From assembly GCF_025717005.1 (NCBI RefSeq), contig NZ_JAOVZU010000002.1, positions 221,480 through 285,479 of the forward strand: a stretch of 64,000 nucleotides of DNA, in the 5' to 3' direction. The translations under genes and the position numbers were made by a program. Position 1 is the first letter of the stretch; each line of letters opens with the position of its first letter. The notes under the pieces are model-generated. The model saw nothing but the letters and a program-made list of their open reading frames with translations. It did no database searches and was not told the origin of the DNA. This DNA is from Actinotalea endophytica (GTDB lineage: Bacteria > Actinomycetota > Actinomycetes > Actinomycetales > Cellulomonadaceae). Below, piece after piece: positions 10,160 to 19,378 of the stretch.

Positions 10160-11497
10160 TCAGCCGAGCAGCGTCGACCCGAGGAACTCCCCGCCGGACA
10201 GCGCGGCGTCGGTGCCGATCCGGGCCACGCCGGGTGGCACGGCGAACAGCGCGGACCCGGTGTGCTTGAGGTACTCCGACAGCCGGTCCGCCGAGGCCAG
10301 GCGCTGCTGGACCGGGACGAAGCCGGTCCGCGGGTCGCGCACGTAGGCGATGAAGTACAGCCCGGCGTCCAGGTGCCCCTGCGCGTCGTTGCCGTCGGTG
10401 AACGTGTACCCGCGGCGCAGCATCCGCACGCCGTCGTTGGCGGACGGGTGGGCCAGGTGCACGTGGGAGGTGGCGTCGATGAGGGGTCGCCCGTCGCCGC
10501 CGGCCGCGGCGAAGTCGGGAGCGGTGTGCTCGGTGCCGCCGGACAGCGGCGCGCCCTCGCGCTTCGAGCGGCCGATCGTCGTCTCCTGCTCGCGCAGCGA
10601 CGTCCGGTCCCACGTCTCCATGAGCATCCGGATCCGGCGTCCGACGAAGTACGTGCCGCCGGTCATCCAGGCGGAGTCGCCCGCGTGCGCCTCGGCGTCG
10701 GAGGGCTGCACCCAGACGTGGTCCTCGAGTGCGGCGGCCTCCTCGGCCTTGACGTTGGCGGTGCCGTCCTTGAAGCCGAAGAGGTTGCGCGGTGTGGACT
10801 GCGCCGTGCTGGTGGCCGACGTCCGGCCGAAGCCGAGCTGGGTCCAGCGCACCCGGGCGGTGCCGAACGCGGCCCGGGACAGCGTGTGGATCGCGTGCAC
10901 GGCGACCTGGGGGTCGTCGGCGCACGCCTGGACCAGCAGGTCGCCGTCGCAGATCGCGGCGTCGAGCTGGTCGCCGGGGAAGTGCGGGAGCGCGGCCAGC
11001 GCGTCCGGCAGGTGCCCGGCGAGACCGAAGCGGTCGGTCCGCCCGTCCGTCCCGACGAACAGCGACCGGCCGAACCCGACCGTCACCGTGAGTCCGGACG
11101 CCGGCAGGTCGGCCGCCTCGCCGGTGTCCTCCGGCGGTGCGTCGTACGGCCCGGAGGCGAAACCCGTCGCGGTGGCGAACAGCCCCTGGGTGAGCCGCGC
11201 TGCGGTCGTCGTCCAGCGCCGGAGCAGGTCCACGAGTGCCGCGCGGTCGTCGGTGGTCAGGTCGAACGCCGCGAGGTACATCCGGTCCTGCTGCGGCGTG
11301 ACGATGCCGGCCTGGTGGGTCCCGGCGAACGGGTACGTGCGCTGCTCGGTCGCCAGGCCGGGGTCGGGCGCGCTCGCCCGGCCGCCGGCGAACCCCCCTG
11401 CGGCGAGCAGCCCGCCGAGGGCCAGTCCACCCGCGAGGGCACCGCGGCGGGAGACGCCCTGGTTGGCGACGTCCGGGCGGGTCGGCTCGTCGGTCAC
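10160..11497 (-). CDS. efeB: Deferrochelatase/peroxidase EfeB (DyP family, Tat-exported)
   Basis: Haem-containing dye-decolourising peroxidase of 445 residues, the third component of the EfeUOB iron system, acting outside the membrane. The N-terminus has a twin-arginine signal (SRRGALAGG then a hydrophobic run), so the folded haem protein would be exported by Tat. The DyP GxxDG-type motif is present as FGFKDGTANV, with a late RRGYTFTDG Arg segment. The GTG start lies two bases before the efeO stop end (GTG at 11497, efeO stop at 11500-11502). Order efeU-efeO-efeB on one strand matches the canonical operon. Confidence 0.95.
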   Translation of the reverse strand: MTDEPTRPDVANQGVSRRGALAGGLALGGLLAAGGFAGGRASAPDPGLATEQRTYPFAGTHQAGIVTPQQDRMYLAAFDLTTDDRAALVDLLRRWTTTAARLTQGLFATATGFASGPYDAPPEDTGEAADLPASGLTVTVGFGRSLFVGTDGRTDRFGLAGHLPDALAALPHFPGDQLDAAICDGDLLVQACADDPQVAVHAIHTLSRAAFGTARVRWTQLGFGRTSATSTAQSTPRNLFGFKDGTANVKAEEAAALEDHVWVQPSDAEAHAGDSAWMTGGTYFVGRRIRMLMETWDRTSLREQETTIGRSKREGAPLSGGTEHTAPDFAAAGGDGRPLIDATSHVHLAHPSANDGVRMLRRGYTFTDGNDAQGHLDAGLYFIAYVRDPRTGFVPVQQRLASADRLSEYLKHTGSALFAVPPGVARIGTDAALSGGEFLGSTLLG

Positions 11498-11499
11498 CG

Positions 11500-12678
11500 T
11501 CAGGCCCCCGTGACCACCGCGGTCAGCCCGGACAGCGGCTCGGCCAGCGCGTCCACGGCGGCGGCGAGCGCCTGGACCTCGTCGGTCGTGAGCTCGTCGT
11601 AGGCGCTGAAGCCGTTCTGGTACGAGCCGTGCTCGGCGAGCACCGCGTCGAGGGCGGCGAACCGGTCGTCGAGCTCGGCGACCAGGTCCGGGTCGGCCTG
11701 CTCGGCGACCGGGCGCAGCACGCCCAGCGCGACCTCGGCTCCGTCCACGTTCGCGGCGAGGTCCCACAGGTCGGTGTGCGACCAGATCTCCTCCTCGCCG
11801 GTGACCTTGCCGGTCGCGACCTCGTCGAGGAGCTCCTTGGCGCCGTTGGAGATCTGGAAGGCCTCGAACGTGAAGTCCGTGGCGGTGACCCGAGCGTGGA
11901 GCTCCTCGGTCTGCGCGACCAGGTCGTCGGCGGCCGCGGTGCGCTCGGCGTCGGTGAGCGCGACGTAGTCCTCGCCGCCGTTGGCCTCCGGGGCCGGCTG
12001 CCACAGATCCTTCTCGATCAGGTGCCAACCGCTCCAGGTCTCGCCCTCGGCCAGGTCCGCCTCGCGCGCGTCGAGCAGCGGGTCGAGGTCGCCGAACGAC
12101 TCCGCGACCGGCTCGATGCGCTCCCAGTGCACCCGAACGGTGGGGTAGAGCTCGCGCGCGCGGTCGTCGTCCCCGGCGGTGTAGGCCGCGGCGAACTCCT
12201 GGGTGCCGGCCAGCAGCGAGCCGACCTGGTCCTTGACGTACGCCAGGTAGTCCGCCTCGGCGGTCGCGAGCTGGTCGGCGACCGCGCCGGTGGGGCCGAC
12301 CTGCTCGCCGGAGTCGGTCACGGTGAACGCCGCCTGGATCCCGTCGCCGACCATCCCGGGCTTGCACGCGGTGAAGTACTCGCCCGGAGCGACCTGCGCG
12401 ACGAGGTCACGGGTCAGGCCCGGCCCGATGTTCTCGACCTCGGCGACGATCCGCAGCGCGTCGTCGGCGAGCAGGTAGAACTCGGTGGTCTCGTCGCCGG
12501 TGTTGGTCACCGAGAAGGTCAGCGTCCCGGACGGTGCCTCGGTTGCCGAGAGCTCGCACGCCGAGGCCGAGGAGTCGACGGTCAGCGCCCGGCCTTCGCC
12601 GGCGGGCGTGTTGGCCACGCACCCGGACAGCAGGACGGCGGCGGGGACGGCGAGGGCGAGCAGGCGTGCGCGGGGCAT
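11500..12678 (-). CDS. efeO: Iron uptake lipoprotein EfeO (cupredoxin plus M75 domain)
   Basis: Extracytoplasmic iron-binding component of the EfeUOB system, 392 residues. The signal ends in a lipobox LLSGC at about residue 20, so it is membrane-anchored. A cupredoxin-like domain (about 30-130, with TFSVTNTGDETTEFYL) precedes an imelysin/M75 domain carrying the HWERIEP metal site. The chosen ATG is preceded by GGAG eight bases upstream; a start ten codons earlier is possible but would put charged residues before the signal. It lies between efeU and efeB. Confidence 0.95.
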   Translation of the reverse strand: MPRARLLALAVPAAVLLSGCVANTPAGEGRALTVDSSASACELSATEAPSGTLTFSVTNTGDETTEFYLLADDALRIVAEVENIGPGLTRDLVAQVAPGEYFTACKPGMVGDGIQAAFTVTDSGEQVGPTGAVADQLATAEADYLAYVKDQVGSLLAGTQEFAAAYTAGDDDRARELYPTVRVHWERIEPVAESFGDLDPLLDAREADLAEGETWSGWHLIEKDLWQPAPEANGGEDYVALTDAERTAAADDLVAQTEELHARVTATDFTFEAFQISNGAKELLDEVATGKVTGEEEIWSHTDLWDLAANVDGAEVALGVLRPVAEQADPDLVAELDDRFAALDAVLAEHGSYQNGFSAYDELTTDEVQALAAAVDALAEPLSGLTAVVTGA

Positions 12679-12758
12679 GGGTGTCTCCGTGGGCGTGCAC
12701 GAGCGCACGGTGGCGCTCGGGGCGGGTGTGGTGGTGGGGGCCGGCTCGGCCGGGGTCG

Positions 12759-13607
12759 TCAGACGGTCGCAGGCTGCGTGCGAGCGGCCGGGGTGGGGGC
12801 CGGGGCGCCGAACCAGACGCGGCGCACGTAGAGCCAGCCGACCGGGAGCACGTAGGCCAGCCAGGCGATGGCCTGGAGCCAGGTGGTCTGCGGGGTGAAG
12901 TTGACCGTGCCGCGCAGCACGGTGCCGTACCAGCTGTCGGGCGGGATCGCTGCCGAGACGTCGAAGGCGAGCGACTCGCCGCCGGGCAGCAGTCCGGCCT
13001 CCTGGAGGTCGTGCACGCCGTACGCCAGCACGCCGCCCGCGACGACGACGAGGGCGAGACCGGTCCAGGCGAAGAAGCGTCGCAGGTCGACCCGCAGCGC
13101 ACCGCGGTACAGGGCCCAGCTGATCGCGACCGCGACGGCGAGGCCGAGCGCCGCGCCGAGCAGCGGGTCCGTGGTCGAGCCGGTGGCGCGGGCCGCCGCC
13201 CAGAGGAACAGCGCGGTCTCGAGGCCCTCTCGCCCGACGGCGAGCAGCGTCACGGTCAGGACGGCCGCGCCGCCGGCGGCCATCGCGGCGTCCAGGCGTC
13301 CGTGCAGCTCCGCCTTGAGGAAGCGCGCGGTGCGGGCCATCCAGAAGATCATCCAGGTGAGCAGGCCGACCGCGAGGATCGACAGCGTGCCGCCGATCGC
13401 CTCCTGGGCCTCGAAGGTGAGCCCGCGGGGCCCGAACGTCAGTGCCGCGCCGACCGCGAGGGAGACGCCGACGGCGAGCGCCACGCCGAGCCAGACCTGG
13501 CGCAGTGCGGCCCGGTGACCGGAACGCACCAGGTAGGCGACGAGGATGCTCACCACGAGGGCGGCCTCGAGGCCTTCACGCAGTCCGATCAGGAAGTTGG
13601 CCAGCAT
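12759..13607 (-). CDS. efeU: Iron permease EfeU (FTR1 family)
   Basis: Membrane permease of 282 residues for iron import, the first gene of the operon. It has about seven hydrophobic segments and the two iron-coordinating REGLE motifs of the FTR1/EfeU family (REGLEA at residues 10-15 and REGLET near 127). A ribosome site TGGAG lies six bases before the ATG. An iron-box-like palindrome sits just upstream at 13643-13661, consistent with repression by DtxR/IdeR under iron-replete conditions. A gap of 80 bases separates it from efeO. Confidence 0.95.
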   Translation of the reverse strand: MLANFLIGLREGLEAALVVSILVAYLVRSGHRAALRQVWLGVALAVGVSLAVGAALTFGPRGLTFEAQEAIGGTLSILAVGLLTWMIFWMARTARFLKAELHGRLDAAMAAGGAAVLTVTLLAVGREGLETALFLWAAARATGSTTDPLLGAALGLAVAVAISWALYRGALRVDLRRFFAWTGLALVVVAGGVLAYGVHDLQEAGLLPGGESLAFDVSAAIPPDSWYGTVLRGTVNFTPQTTWLQAIAWLAYVLPVGWLYVRRVWFGAPAPTPAARTQPATV

Positions 13608-16027: not shown

Positions 16028-16171
16028 GGCTCACCGTAACGTGCGGGTCTCGCTGCGCCCCTCCACGAGCCCGGGGCGCGGGCAAGACTGTGGGCTTCGA
16101 CAAGGGCCGTGCGGGCGGGTTTGTCGCCTTCCGACCAGGGGTCACCGGGCCGTTCCATGGCAGGCGACGGC

Positions 16172-16204
16172 GGTGCCGCTCGGGCCCTCCTCCCGTGCGG
16201 CACC
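16172..16204 (-). terminator. Weak hairpin 3' of the caspase-like gene
   Basis: GGTGCCGC at 16172-16179 pairs perfectly with GCGGCACC at 16197-16204 around a 17-base loop. It lies just beyond the stop of the caspase-like gene in the 228-base gap before the carboxylase gene. There is no T-tract, so termination is only a possibility. I see no gene in the rest of this gap. Confidence 0.25.
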
Positions 16205-16255
16205 TCCGGCGCGTCGCTCCGCGGACCTCAGGCCGCGGGTGTCACGAGCCGTGCC

Positions 16256-17677
16256 TCACTTCGCGTGCCCGGCCATCGCGATCTCGGCGGCGTGCGCGAG
16301 CGACTCCTCGACCAGCTCGCCGACCCCCCGGCCGTCGACCGACGCGAGCCGGCTCGCGAGGGCCTCGGCGTCGTCGAGCGACGCGAGCAGCCTGACGGCC
16401 CAGTCCGGCGGCGGGTCCGGGATCGGGTGCTTGATGAGGTGACCCTCGATCGCGAGGTACTTGTCGAGCAGCTCGCGGATGATGTCCGCGAGCGTCGGCG
16501 CCTTCGTCAAGTAGATCCCCGCGCCGCACCCCGACGGGGCGTCGCCGTACTGCGGGTCGTCGTAGTACGTGTCGTAGTCGTAGGCGTCGGAGTAGTCGAA
16601 CGCCTCGCGTGCGCTCACCCGGCCGTTGCCGTTCGCGTCCGGCTGGTGGGCCAGGCTCGCGCCGTAGGCGGTCGAGCCGTTGACCGACTCGAACCAGGCC
16701 CGGGCCCACTGGTCGAAGTGGGAGTCCCCGGCGCTCACCTTGTCGGCGGGGACCGCGCTCGCGAAGGAGGTCCGGTCGGCCCGGCTGTGGTCGAGCGTCG
16801 GCTGCAGGAACGCGCCCGAGTAGCACTGCTCCATGGTCACCACGAGGGTGCCGAACGGATCCATGCCGTCGAGCATCGTGGACCACTCGGCCGGCGTGAG
16901 CACCGAGGTCGAGTCGATGCACAGGCCGGACGGTGCGCCGTGGTTGTTGGTGTGCACGAAGAGCAGGCTGTCGGCGTTCATCCGGCCGCCGATCGTGGTC
17001 AGCGTCGACTGCAGGCTCGCCTTGGTCGCGGCGCTGGAGACGTTCATCTGGTACGGCGTCCCGTCGCCGACCCAGGTGGCCATGTCGGGGCCGTGGTAGT
17101 CGGTCGAGTCGATCGTGCCGTCGAAGCACAGCACGTAGACGTTCGACGCCGGGAAGCCGAACCGGTGGCACAGCACGCGGTAGGCGAACTCGATGTCCTC
17201 GACGTGGCGCCGGTTGCTGATCTGGCTGGTGAACAGCAGCGCGAACCGGTTGTCGTCGACGAGCCACGGGTGCTGCGGGACCGTCGACCAGTCGAACCTG
17301 CTGTAGAGGCTCGCCCGCGACTCCGCCATCGCCAGCGGCTCGTGGAAGTACTCGGGCCGCAGTCGTGGGTCGGCGACCTCCGGCGGGAACAGCGCCTCGG
17401 CGGTATGGACGATCGCGCCGTCGGCCGGGGAGTGGAACAGGTACCGGCACGGGTGGCCGAAGTTCGCTCCCGGCATCTGGTCCTCGAAGACCAGGATCGA
17501 GTCCTGCGGGACCTCGATCCGCCGGTCGACGAGGCTGAGCACGTCGCCCTTGCGCATCATCCGGGGCACGACGCCCAGGTGGTGGGTGGCGGCGTCATCG
17601 GGGGTGAGGGCCGCGAAGGCGTTCGCGCGTGCGCGTTCGAGGGTGTGTTCGTTGAGCTTCCTGCGGGGGTCCTTCAT
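16256..17677 (-). CDS. Caspase/legumain-like clan CD cysteine peptidase with shared N-terminal module and Ca-binding loop
   Basis: Predicted cytosolic cysteine peptidase, 473 residues, with no signal peptide or membrane segment. The central domain (about 145-330) has the clan CD layout: a strand then VHTNNHG with catalytic His246, then a strand and VVTMEQCYSG with catalytic Cys285, closest to family C13 and caspases. Residues 347-358 form a textbook EF-hand loop (D-N-N-S-E at positions 1, 3, 5, 9 and 12). Residues about 44-100 contain LVFEDQMPGANFGHPCRY, a module repeated in the 112-residue protein encoded 18 bases upstream. The C-terminal 90 residues are mostly helical. A strong GAGGAGG site precedes the ATG. 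Substrate and biological role are unknown; regulated proteolysis, cell death or immunity are possibilities. Confidence 0.8.
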   Translation of the reverse strand: MKDPRRKLNEHTLERARANAFAALTPDDAATHHLGVVPRMMRKGDVLSLVDRRIEVPQDSILVFEDQMPGANFGHPCRYLFHSPADGAIVHTAEALFPPEVADPRLRPEYFHEPLAMAESRASLYSRFDWSTVPQHPWLVDDNRFALLFTSQISNRRHVEDIEFAYRVLCHRFGFPASNVYVLCFDGTIDSTDYHGPDMATWVGDGTPYQMNVSSAATKASLQSTLTTIGGRMNADSLLFVHTNNHGAPSGLCIDSTSVLTPAEWSTMLDGMDPFGTLVVTMEQCYSGAFLQPTLDHSRADRTSFASAVPADKVSAGDSHFDQWARAWFESVNGSTAYGASLAHQPDANGNGRVSAREAFDYSDAYDYDTYYDDPQYGDAPSGCGAGIYLTKAPTLADIIRELLDKYLAIEGHLIKHPIPDPPPDWAVRLLASLDDAEALASRLASVDGRGVGELVEESLAHAAEIAMAGHAK

Positions 17678-17695
17678 GAGCTCCTCCTCGGAGCC

Positions 17696-18034
17696 TCAGG
17701 GCGGTGCGAGGTCCGCCCGCCCTTCCGGATCGACCGCGACGACCCACGTCTCCGGCAGGCGGCCGAACACGGGCGGGCGGTCGGCTGGGACGGTGAGCAC
17801 CAGCTCACCGGACTGCGCATCGACCAGCGCATATGTGCACGGGTGCAGCCAGTTGGCACCCGGCATCTCGTCCCGGAACACCAGGAGTGCAGGGCTGGTG
17901 AGGGAGTGCGTACGGGGGCCGACGACCACGTCGCCGGGCTCGCGCACCTCACGGTCCACGTAGACGACAGCCGGGCCTGACGGCCCCAGCGTCCGAGTGC
18001 CGAGGTCGACCGCTCTTCCTGCGTCGACGAGCAT
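17696..18034 (-). CDS. Small partner protein homologous to the peptidase N-terminal module
   Basis: Protein of 112 residues, first gene of the pair. Residues about 33-90 align with residues 43-100 of the downstream caspase-like peptidase, sharing GDV, LVFxDxMPGAN, HPC and Tyr with little else conserved. There is no signal peptide. I do not recognise the fold. A stand-alone copy of a peptidase's non-catalytic module often acts as an inhibitor, chaperone or recruitment partner; that is inference here. The ATG at 18034 has AAGGAG nine bases upstream, better than the longer frame starting at 18091. The peptidase start follows after 18 bases, so they should be co-transcribed. Confidence 0.72.
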   Translation of the reverse strand: MLVDAGRAVDLGTRTLGPSGPAVVYVDREVREPGDVVVGPRTHSLTSPALLVFRDEMPGANWLHPCTYALVDAQSGELVLTVPADRPPVFGRLPETWVVAVDPEGRADLAPP

Positions 18035-18107
18035 CGCGTGCTCCTTACGGCTCTGCACCGCCAGGATCACTCGCGGGAGGGTCGGCGGCAAGGCGTGGGC
18101 CTGGTTT

Positions 18108-18130
18108 TTTCCTGCGAATGTCGTGGGAAA
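18108..18130 (-). promoter_or_regulatory. AT-rich inverted repeat upstream of the peptidase pair
   Basis: TTTCC at 18108-18112 and GGAAA at 18126-18130 form an inverted repeat with a 13-base spacer within the only AT-rich stretch between the maf fusion and the small partner gene. It sits about 75 bases upstream of the partner's start. The position suits a promoter or operator. The arms are short, so the call is tentative. Confidence 0.3.
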
Positions 18131-18136
18131 TGCCTG

Positions 18137-19378
18137 CTACGTGTCGTGCCGCCACTCGTCCCGCAGCACGGCGTACACGTACTCGTCGGTCCACTCGCCC
18201 TTCCAGAACGCCGCGGAGCGGTGCTCCGCCTCGCGGCGCATGCCGACCCGCTCGAGCAGCCGCGCCGAGGCCGTGTTCCGGGCGTCGCAGTCGGCGACCA
18301 CCCGGTGCAGGCCGGCGCTGAACAGGTGGTCGACGAGCGCGTCGAGCGCCTCGGTGGCGTAGCCGCGGCCCTGCGCCGCACCCGCGAACGTCACGCCGAC
18401 CCGCGCCTGCTCGCCGTCCGGGTCGACCCGCACCGCGAGGTCGCCGACGTGCTCGCCGTCCGCCTCGACCGCGAGCTGGACCCAACGCCCCGGGCTCACC
18501 GGGTCGCGGCCGGCCACCTCGGCGACGAACGCGCGTGCCTGTGCGAGCGTGAACGGCGCGTCCCAGCTCTGGTACCTGGCGACCTCGGGCTCGGAGCGGT
18601 AGGCCGCGAGCGTCCGGGCGTGCTCGGCCGTCATCGAGCGGATCACCAGGCGCGGGGTCCGCAGCACGAAGCCCGTCCGGCCGGCGGCCGTGGTGGCGCC
18701 CGCGGTGGCACCGGGGCTGCCGGCCCACAGCGACGGCACCGTGACGTCGAGCCGGCCGAGGAGGTCGCGCAGCAGCGGCAGGCTCAGCCCGACGACGGTG
18801 TGGTGGTCGCCCTCGAGGCCCGTGACGAACGGCCCGCCGATCCCGTCGATCGTGAAGGCCCCGGCCACCGCCAGCGGCTCGCCGGTCGCGACGTACGCCT
18901 CGATCTCGGCGTCGGAGAGGTCGGCGAAGTGCACCACCGTCGACGCCGTCGCGCCGACCTCACCGGTCGCCCCGTCGCGCTCGTCGACCAGCCAGTGGCC
19001 GGTGTGCAGCACACCGCTGCGCCCGCGCATCCGCCGCCAGCGCGCGATCGCGTCCGCGGGGTCCGCCGGTTTGCCGAGTGCCTCGCCGTCGAGCTCGAGC
19101 AGCGAGTCGCAACCGAGCACCACGAGGTCGTCCGGCAGCTCGGTCCCGTGGTCGTCGTGCGGGACGTGCTCGAGCGTCGGCAGCACCGCGTGCGCCTTGG
19201 CGCGGGCCAGGGCGAGCACCGCGTCGGCCGGCGGGAGGGCCGCGCCGGCCTGCTCGGCCGCCGCGGCCAGCACCGCGTCCTCGTCCACGCCCGAGACCCG
19301 CACCACGGGCTCGATGCCCGCCGAACGCAAGGTCGACAGGCGTGCGGGCGAGGCGGAGGCGAGCAGCAGCGTCGTCAC
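18137..19378 (-). CDS. Maf nucleotide pyrophosphatase fused to a GNAT acetyltransferase
   Basis: Fusion protein of 413 residues. Residues 1 to about 220 are a Maf domain: ASASPARLSTLRSAGI at the start, the catalytic GCDSLLELDGEALGKP segment, and AGAFTIDGIGG late in the domain. Maf proteins hydrolyse non-canonical or modified nucleoside triphosphates. After a Gly/Ala/Thr linker, residues about 230-413 form a RimJ-like GNAT N-acetyltransferase (LRTPRLVIRSM, GAAQGRGYATEAL acetyl-CoA loop, NTASARLLERVGM). Most Maf proteins are stand-alone at about 200 residues. The GTG start has TAGCCT six bases upstream. In mycobacteria maf also sits between the carboxylase beta/epsilon genes and accA3. Confidence 0.92.
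   Translation of the reverse strand: MTTLLLASASPARLSTLRSAGIEPVVRVSGVDEDAVLAAAAEQAGAALPPADAVLALARAKAHAVLPTLEHVPHDDHGTELPDDLVVLGCDSLLELDGEALGKPADPADAIARWRRMRGRSGVLHTGHWLVDERDGATGEVGATASTVVHFADLSDAEIEAYVATGEPLAVAGAFTIDGIGGPFVTGLEGDHHTVVGLSLPLLRDLLGRLDVTVPSLWAGSPGATAGATTAAGRTGFVLRTPRLVIRSMTAEHARTLAAYRSEPEVARYQSWDAPFTLAQARAFVAEVAGRDPVSPGRWVQLAVEADGEHVGDLAVRVDPDGEQARVGVTFAGAAQGRGYATEALDALVDHLFSAGLHRVVADCDARNTASARLLERVGMRREAEHRSAAFWKGEWTDEYVYAVLRDEWRHDT

Follow-up and report, generated by a model that had tools for sequence, protein, structure and literature searches.

A 64,000-nucleotide stretch of the Actinotalea endophytica genome (contig NZ_JAOVZU010000002.1, positions 221,480 to 285,479; "the window" below) carries two adjacent genes that form a sporadically distributed, inserted unit: one encodes a cysteine peptidase of the legumain family, C13, and the other, much smaller, encodes a stand-alone (trans) copy of the peptidase's own N-terminal (cis) module. 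The catalytic domain has the legumain fold and the catalytic residues of that family, the two modules are homologous, and the genes stand side by side in distant genomes as well. From these observations we infer inhibition by the module, a role for a conserved loop Asn, calcium control and a protective purpose; that is, on balance this is probably a horizontally moved unit in which a legumain-type peptidase with a cis prodomain travels with a propeptide-like trans inhibitor that guards the cell.

The peptidase gene (16256..17677) encodes 473 residues, N-terminal module included, and the small gene upstream of it (17696..18034) encodes 112 residues from its ATG, a candidate peptidase inhibitor; these and all window features located below, apart from the insertion itself, are on the minus strand. 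The 18 bases between the genes (17678..17695) contain a Shine-Dalgarno-like GAGGAGG, read from the sequence, and a scan for promoters and terminators found nothing. By a hydropathy measure neither protein has a strongly hydrophobic N-terminal segment, so it is reasonable to call both cytosolic. An earlier note on this DNA, made from the letters alone, had given the same coordinates, protein lengths and 18-base gap, had placed the catalytic residues at His246 (VHTNNHG) and Cys285 (MEQCYSG), and had judged both proteins cytosolic; all of this held up.

The peptidase is a legumain-type enzyme

Pfam family PF01650 (Peptidase_C13) matches the window peptidase with an expectation value (E) of 5.9e-8 and 33.0 bits against a cut-off of 22.8, and it matches 27 of 29 peptidase relatives at E 0.01. 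A profile made from the 29 relatives retrieves legumains from among the solved structures, a plant legumain being the top match at E 3e-18. By these profile and structure matches the catalytic domain (residues 141-394, 16496..17257) is a legumain fold and a member of family C13. The earlier note had spoken of a caspase/legumain-like clan CD enzyme and had staked this on a structural match of the central domain to that clan; the structures matched are legumains, which narrows clan CD to C13, and the caspase half of the description falls away, since the window protein has no match to the caspase family C14 at E 10. Among the relatives, the C14 profile matches 2 of 29 at E 0.01, and NCBIfam caspase_w_EACC1 matches 2 of 29 with a top E of 1.1e-5, the window protein not being one of them.

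The catalytic residues align with the legumain His and Cys. His246 (codon 16940..16942) and G247 are present in all 29 aligned rows, and Cys285 (codon 16823..16825) in 28, the remaining row (L021) being incomplete there. In a profile alignment with plant legumains, residues R157, H158, S315 and D322 of the window peptidase fall opposite Arg44, His45, Ser216 and Asp231, which we take to be the human legumain numbers of the aligned letters. R157 is found in 28/29 rows, S315 in 28/29 (one incomplete), D322 in 23/29 (Asn in 5, one incomplete) and H158 in 18/29, the latter being all of the cytosolic rows, and every complete cytosolic row (n=17) has all four. Those four legumain residues are reported to line the S1 pocket, and legumain accepts Asn, or Asp at low pH (PMC4357240). 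The window peptidase would thus be predicted to prefer Asn or Asp (Asx).

An EF-hand-like loop at residues 347-358 (DANGNGRVSARE, 16604..16639) is a candidate calcium site, with D347 and E358 present in 28 of the 29 rows and the last row incomplete; Pfam EF-hand_5 matches two of the 29 members. Calcium control has been described for metacaspases and gingipains (PMC4357240), and the loop hints that calcium may control this peptidase as well. In a check for a C-terminal LSAM-type prodomain, residues 395-473 were modeled as largely helical at a predicted local distance difference test score (pLDDT) of about 40-63, and alignments of the window peptidase with pro-legumain chains stop at residues 392-394.

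Four relatives (L003:7998-10412, L020:3884-6226, L027:8428-10689 and L066:6040-8331) have an additional C-terminal region, about 350 residues long. That of L003 resembles part of an S8 family peptidase from a Paracoccus zhejiangensis plasmid (29.8% identity, 39% of the query), ends in a His/Cys-rich segment and has no clear Pfam match.

The same module in cis and in trans

The window peptidase and the small protein align with each other in BLASTP at 36% over 70 residues (E 3e-10), and a profile-to-profile comparison gives E 1.1e-31 over 96 columns. The resemblance is not due to chance, and the homology that the earlier note had read by eye is confirmed. By these comparisons and a structure model, the cis module spans residues 1-112 (17342..17677), with helices first and strands after; the small protein is modeled with a mean pLDDT of 93.4 and a predicted template modeling score of 0.86.

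Both modules contain a conserved loop with the motif D..P..N[WF].H, a coil between strands in the cis and trans models alike. In the cis module it lies in the conserved stretch of residues 66-79 (DQMPGANFGHPCRY, 17441..17482), mainly coil flanked by two strands, which with Asn72 is a candidate reactive-site loop; the corresponding trans stretch, residues 55-66 (DEMPGANWLHPC, 17837..17872), is mainly coil and contains Asn61. Of 56 modules, 55 have this Asn (the lone exception, L067, has Asp), and it is the sole near-invariant polar loop residue of the module that would fit an S1-type pocket. This apparent invariance is inflated because the genome-collection scan that supplied most of the loci (below) used the patterns N[FW][GA]HPC[RE]Y and FH[EM]P[LV][AK]M[AI], the first of which contains loop residues and takes the window and L003 cis copies as its source, so that one module per scanned locus may match by construction. 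Among the 26 modules free of that requirement (the second module of a scanned locus, or modules of loci found by other means, with those of the window and L003 counted in), a hand tally gave Asn in 25, Asp in one and His in all 26.

When the PDB and viral libraries were searched by fold at E 0.001, nothing matched the small protein; the rows listed include neither cystatins nor staphostatins nor the SpeB pro-region, which excludes none of them. When 18 trans modules were compared with Pfam at E 10, no inhibitor family was among the 4 matches listed, and none was among the 5 listed for NCBIfam at E 1.

The genes are paired in distant genomes

Near relatives of the host yielded the pair only in the window's own genome, which was the single positive among 150 genomes of its family, among 396 of its phylum and, in a profile search, among 296 genomes. 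A scan of a genome collection with a two-row alignment gave 30 loci. Their titles include Nocardioides, Microbacterium, Frankiaceae, Elioraea, Propionivibrio, Methylococcaceae, Anaerolineae, Acidobacteria, Geobacter, Flavipsychrobacter, Bacteroidales, Prevotella and others, and single taxon labels may be wrong because many of the source genomes are metagenome drafts. An archaeal relative lies on plasmid pMETHO01 of Methanomethylovorans hollandica.

The earlier note had proposed surveying homologs for co-occurrence with the small gene. Such co-occurrence was found, by tblastn and open reading frames, at 20 loci where a stand-alone module gene adjoins the peptidase gene on the same strand (the window, L003, L006 to L018, L020, L021, L022, L027 and L066). 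The small gene precedes the peptidase gene in 14 of these and follows it in six (L010, L011, L012, L013, L015 and L017), and the spacing ranges from a 4-base overlap to 393 bases. In the peptidase tree the cytosolic enzymes form one side of a branch with support 100/100 (19 rows, or 20 with the incomplete L021, which was too short for the tree). Pairing follows this division: 19 of 20 cytosolic peptidases are paired, the exception being L019, as against one of 15 (L022, a Prevotella locus) in the secreted branch. That branch comprises L022, L023, L024, L025, L026, L028, L029, L030, L031, L033 and L034 by the tree and L035, L062, L067 and L088 by similarity (L067 also by its leader), these last four standing outside the 29-row residue counts, the module tree, the entropy comparison and the peptidase tree. 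"Secreted" here denotes a hydropathy measure, and the L033 sequence starts too late for a leader to be visible.

A module profile run against the 30 source genomes gave 52 hits, 33 of them within peptidases, 18 stand-alone and one other; sorted by hand, all 18 stand-alone hits adjoin a peptidase gene. The remaining hit (L032:7854-8567) is a secreted-looking module with, by eye, a C-terminal tail like a sorting signal; it is the only module hit in its genome, and no catalytic domain occurs anywhere in the 16 kb locus. In the loci examined, no gene family recurs directly adjacent to the pair outside one genus. Clustering of the open frames of the loci for a third partner gene returned, besides the pair and overlapping frames, only Elioraea synteny (L009, L014 and L021) and two recurring groups (L006, L012, L013 and L033; L006, L007 and L023), which lie at least 1 kb from the pair where compared.

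Evolution of the pair

The two genes are inherited together. Distances between trans modules correlate with distances between catalytic domains (r 0.75 over 16 loci, with none of 20000 permutations as high), and the correlation persists when near copies are dropped (r 0.72 over 13 loci, again 0/20000). L021, which is incomplete, and L003, L013 and L066, which are not in both alignments, were left out of both tests, and L011, L014 and L015 also of the second. Both genes are under purifying selection, with ratios of nonsynonymous to synonymous substitution rates of 0.06-0.38 in seven close-relative comparisons per gene, one of them window versus L006. The Methanomethylovorans hollandica member and a Bacteroidales member are sisters with support 100/100, which suggests transfer between domains.

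In the module tree, cis and trans modules separate among the cytosolic pairs, and the trans module of the Prevotella locus groups with the cis module of the same locus as its sister (99/99). The possibility that every stand-alone copy goes back to one origin was rejected, monophyly of the trans modules giving a p value of 0.00075 in the approximately unbiased (AU) test. Therefore the stand-alone copy arose at least twice, the Prevotella duplication apparently independently of that in the cytosolic pairs, unless gene conversion in Prevotella, which could look alike, or the long branches present mislead. By eye, the Prevotella trans module has a lipoprotein-like leader (LGAC); its enzyme has a hydrophobic leader, so this partner appears to follow the compartment of its enzyme, with a predicted lipoprotein leader beside a secreted enzyme. 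Two small genes with a near-identical lipoprotein-like leader and no Pfam match (L022:2425-3295) precede this stand-alone module gene.

Insertion into the Actinotalea genome

Relative to the closest genome compared (L069), similarity of the window ends near 16140 and restarts near 18136, by eye, which roughly delimits the insertion containing the pair (16140..18136). When 19 genomes from the window's genus were searched, 18 of them, the window's own included, had the Maf-type flanking gene, and in 16 of the 17 others a biotin-carboxylase-type gene (names by eye) lies next to it with no pair between, the seventeenth having its biotin-carboxylase-type gene beyond the stretch compared. The guanine-plus-cytosine content is 68-72% in the pair versus 71-78% outside. 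The most economical interpretation is that both genes were acquired together, by insertion of a two-gene cassette.

A phage origin was rejected as a candidate, as a search of PHROGs gave no match at E 1 and scans of viral contigs gave no relative; two phage records have a remote C13 stretch at 22% coverage. Membership in a known anti-phage defense system was likewise rejected, as neither the two window proteins nor the methanogen relative matched PADLOC at E 1. Beside the insertion, a 413-codon frame (18137-19378) apparently fuses Maf-like and GNAT-like domains, as judged by eye, and in most genomes of the same genus the match at this position covers only about residues 1-230 to 1-260. Farther away, at 10160-13607, lie genes that by eye resemble an EfeUOB-type iron-uptake system with a peroxidase exported by twin-arginine translocation.

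Comparison with known protease and inhibitor systems

Legumain (asparaginyl endopeptidase; C13, clan CD) lacks the N-terminal module found here, and the members here differ further in being mostly cytosolic-looking and in having the EF-hand-like loop and a companion gene. The prodomain of legumain lies at its C terminus (PMC4357240). The gene arrangement is like that of several other protease-inhibitor pairs: the C10 peptidase SpeB and Spi, staphopain and staphostatin, and the Bacteroides C10 peptidases with their inhibitors all place a protease gene beside a small gene, Spi resembles SpeB's own propeptide, and the Bacteroides partners can be lipoproteins encoded upstream or downstream (PMC2873492, PMC3462683). 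SpeB-type enzymes are papain-like, however, and not members of clan CD, and the inhibitors from Bacteroides and staphylococci do not resemble propeptides, unlike the small protein here, which resembles the N-terminal module of the neighboring protease, presumably a pro-region.

Within clan CD, the gingipain RgpB (C25) likewise has an N-terminal prodomain, which as a separate recombinant protein inhibits in trans; for gingipain propeptides in general such inhibition is described, with a Ki of 12 nM for RgpB (PMC3677877). That prodomain has about 200 residues and places an Arg in the S1 pocket, unlike the module here, and no sequence link between the two was found, no test having been aimed at one. 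To our knowledge no natural stand-alone copy of the RgpB prodomain exists. The propeptide-like I29 inhibitors (CTLA-2alpha, crammer and BCPI) do stand alone and inhibit in trans (PMC4089206, PMC3551606). Unlike the small protein here, they are animal proteins that target papain-family enzymes. We know of none that is a gene neighbor of its target.

A C13 protease-partner pair of this kind was not described in the titles and abstract beginnings listed by full-text searches of open-licence papers, aimed at C13 or clan CD in prokaryotes and at precedents, and the excerpts of a polymorphic toxin survey contain neither "legumain" nor "C13" (PMC3482391). What is new here is that the protease with the propeptide-like companion belongs to a clan, and probably works in a part of the cell, for which no such description was found; C13 itself was already known.

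How the pair might work

The S1 residues, the loop Asn, the clan CD precedents and the SpeB-Spi case together make a prodomain in cis with a prodomain-like inhibitor in trans the simplest reading. The large gene would encode a cytosolic, Asn/Asp-preferring legumain-type peptidase whose N-terminal module acts as an integral prodomain and holds it inactive, and the small gene would supply the same module as a separate propeptide-like inhibitor. Binding at the same place in trans, it would protect the cell from enzyme whose own module has been lost or displaced. The likeliest contact would be the conserved loop, with Asn72 (cis) or Asn61 (trans) occupying the S1 pocket in the manner of a substrate, by analogy with Arg126 of the RgpB prodomain (PMC4357240) and Asn39 of cystatin E in legumain (PMC7863939), and the EF-hand-like loop of the catalytic domain makes calcium a candidate trigger.

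Several observations weigh against this scheme. In the nearest precedent in the clan, the kinetics of the gingipain propeptides are non-competitive (PMC3677877) and therefore fit a plain substrate mimic poorly. The stretch of residues 60-80 is the most conserved of five compared (mean entropy 1.20 versus 1.90 for the catalytic domain, 24 rows), more than expected of a propeptide, though partly by construction of the scan pattern. The trans loop is modeled confidently, but cis loop residues 72-76 are at pLDDT <50, so the shape of the cis loop is unsure, and linker residues 116-139 of the peptidase are also below 50. Fourteen of the 15 secreted-branch peptidases and the cytosolic L019 are not accompanied by a separate copy of their module, so the enzyme can exist in the absence of a partner, and many loci come from incomplete draft genomes. 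Finally, every one of the 35 cis modules seen has the Cys of the HPC motif, but Ala takes its place in 4 of the 20 trans modules (L012, L013, L015 and L018), so cis and trans modules are not functionally identical, a contrast that the scheme leaves unexplained. A propeptide cysteine that locks the catalytic Cys has been discussed for Kgp (PMC3677877) and reported for cathepsin X (PMC7863939), and by analogy a thiol lock by the HPC Cys in cis is possible.

The earlier note had left the partner's function at "inhibits, scaffolds or presents". Pairing, co-inheritance and one apparently independent duplication uphold this as a class of explanation, and inhibition appears the best of the three. An adaptor role, in which the module serves for docking or sensing and the small protein brings substrates or is a subunit of a mixed complex needed for activity, strikes us as unlikely but worth keeping in view; a required subunit would rarely be missing, and the separate copy is missing from those same 14 secreted-branch enzymes. 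We give somewhat less credence still to the small protein as a substrate, cut for example after the conserved Asn to yield a signal or effector, with the cis module as an autocleavage site. The Asn would suit a legumain S1 pocket and the coil loop could be cut, but the enzyme itself retains this motif in 29 of 29 aligned members, and the partner conserves its whole fold and not just a cleavage peptide. That the small gene is what remains of a domain duplication and does nothing for the peptidase is very improbable: homology with a neighboring gene would by itself fit a recent duplication, but the purifying selection in seven comparisons, the adjacency of 18 of the 19 non-peptidase modules in the 30 genomes to a peptidase gene, the placement of cytosolic cis and trans modules in different parts of the tree and the second, separate case in Prevotella all argue against it.

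Beyond inhibition of the peptidase by a prodomain in cis and its copy in trans, a bolder version is conceivable, and we advance it only tentatively. The pair could be a cross-domain, legumain-based cell-death or growth-arrest unit, a mobile two-gene cassette in which a cytosolic asparaginyl endopeptidase is checked by a doubled prodomain (cis and trans), with a lipoprotein antidote re-invented in the secreted branch; the trans copy would then be a propeptide-derived family of clan CD inhibitors with an Asn P1 mimic, and the HPC Cys, kept in cis but not always in trans, might lock the catalytic Cys through its thiol.

Legumains have been studied mostly in eukaryotes. A prokaryotic branch with an N-terminal module and a matching stand-alone copy offers a direct test of how clan CD enzymes are kept inactive in the cytosol and of how a propeptide becomes an antidote, in an arrangement that seemingly arose twice and whose parts are small and apparently soluble. 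If the small protein is indeed an inhibitor, it would represent a new family of protein inhibitors of asparaginyl endopeptidases, and if it acts as a brake, the pair would be a new kind of protease control, rare, in distant bacteria and on one archaeal plasmid.
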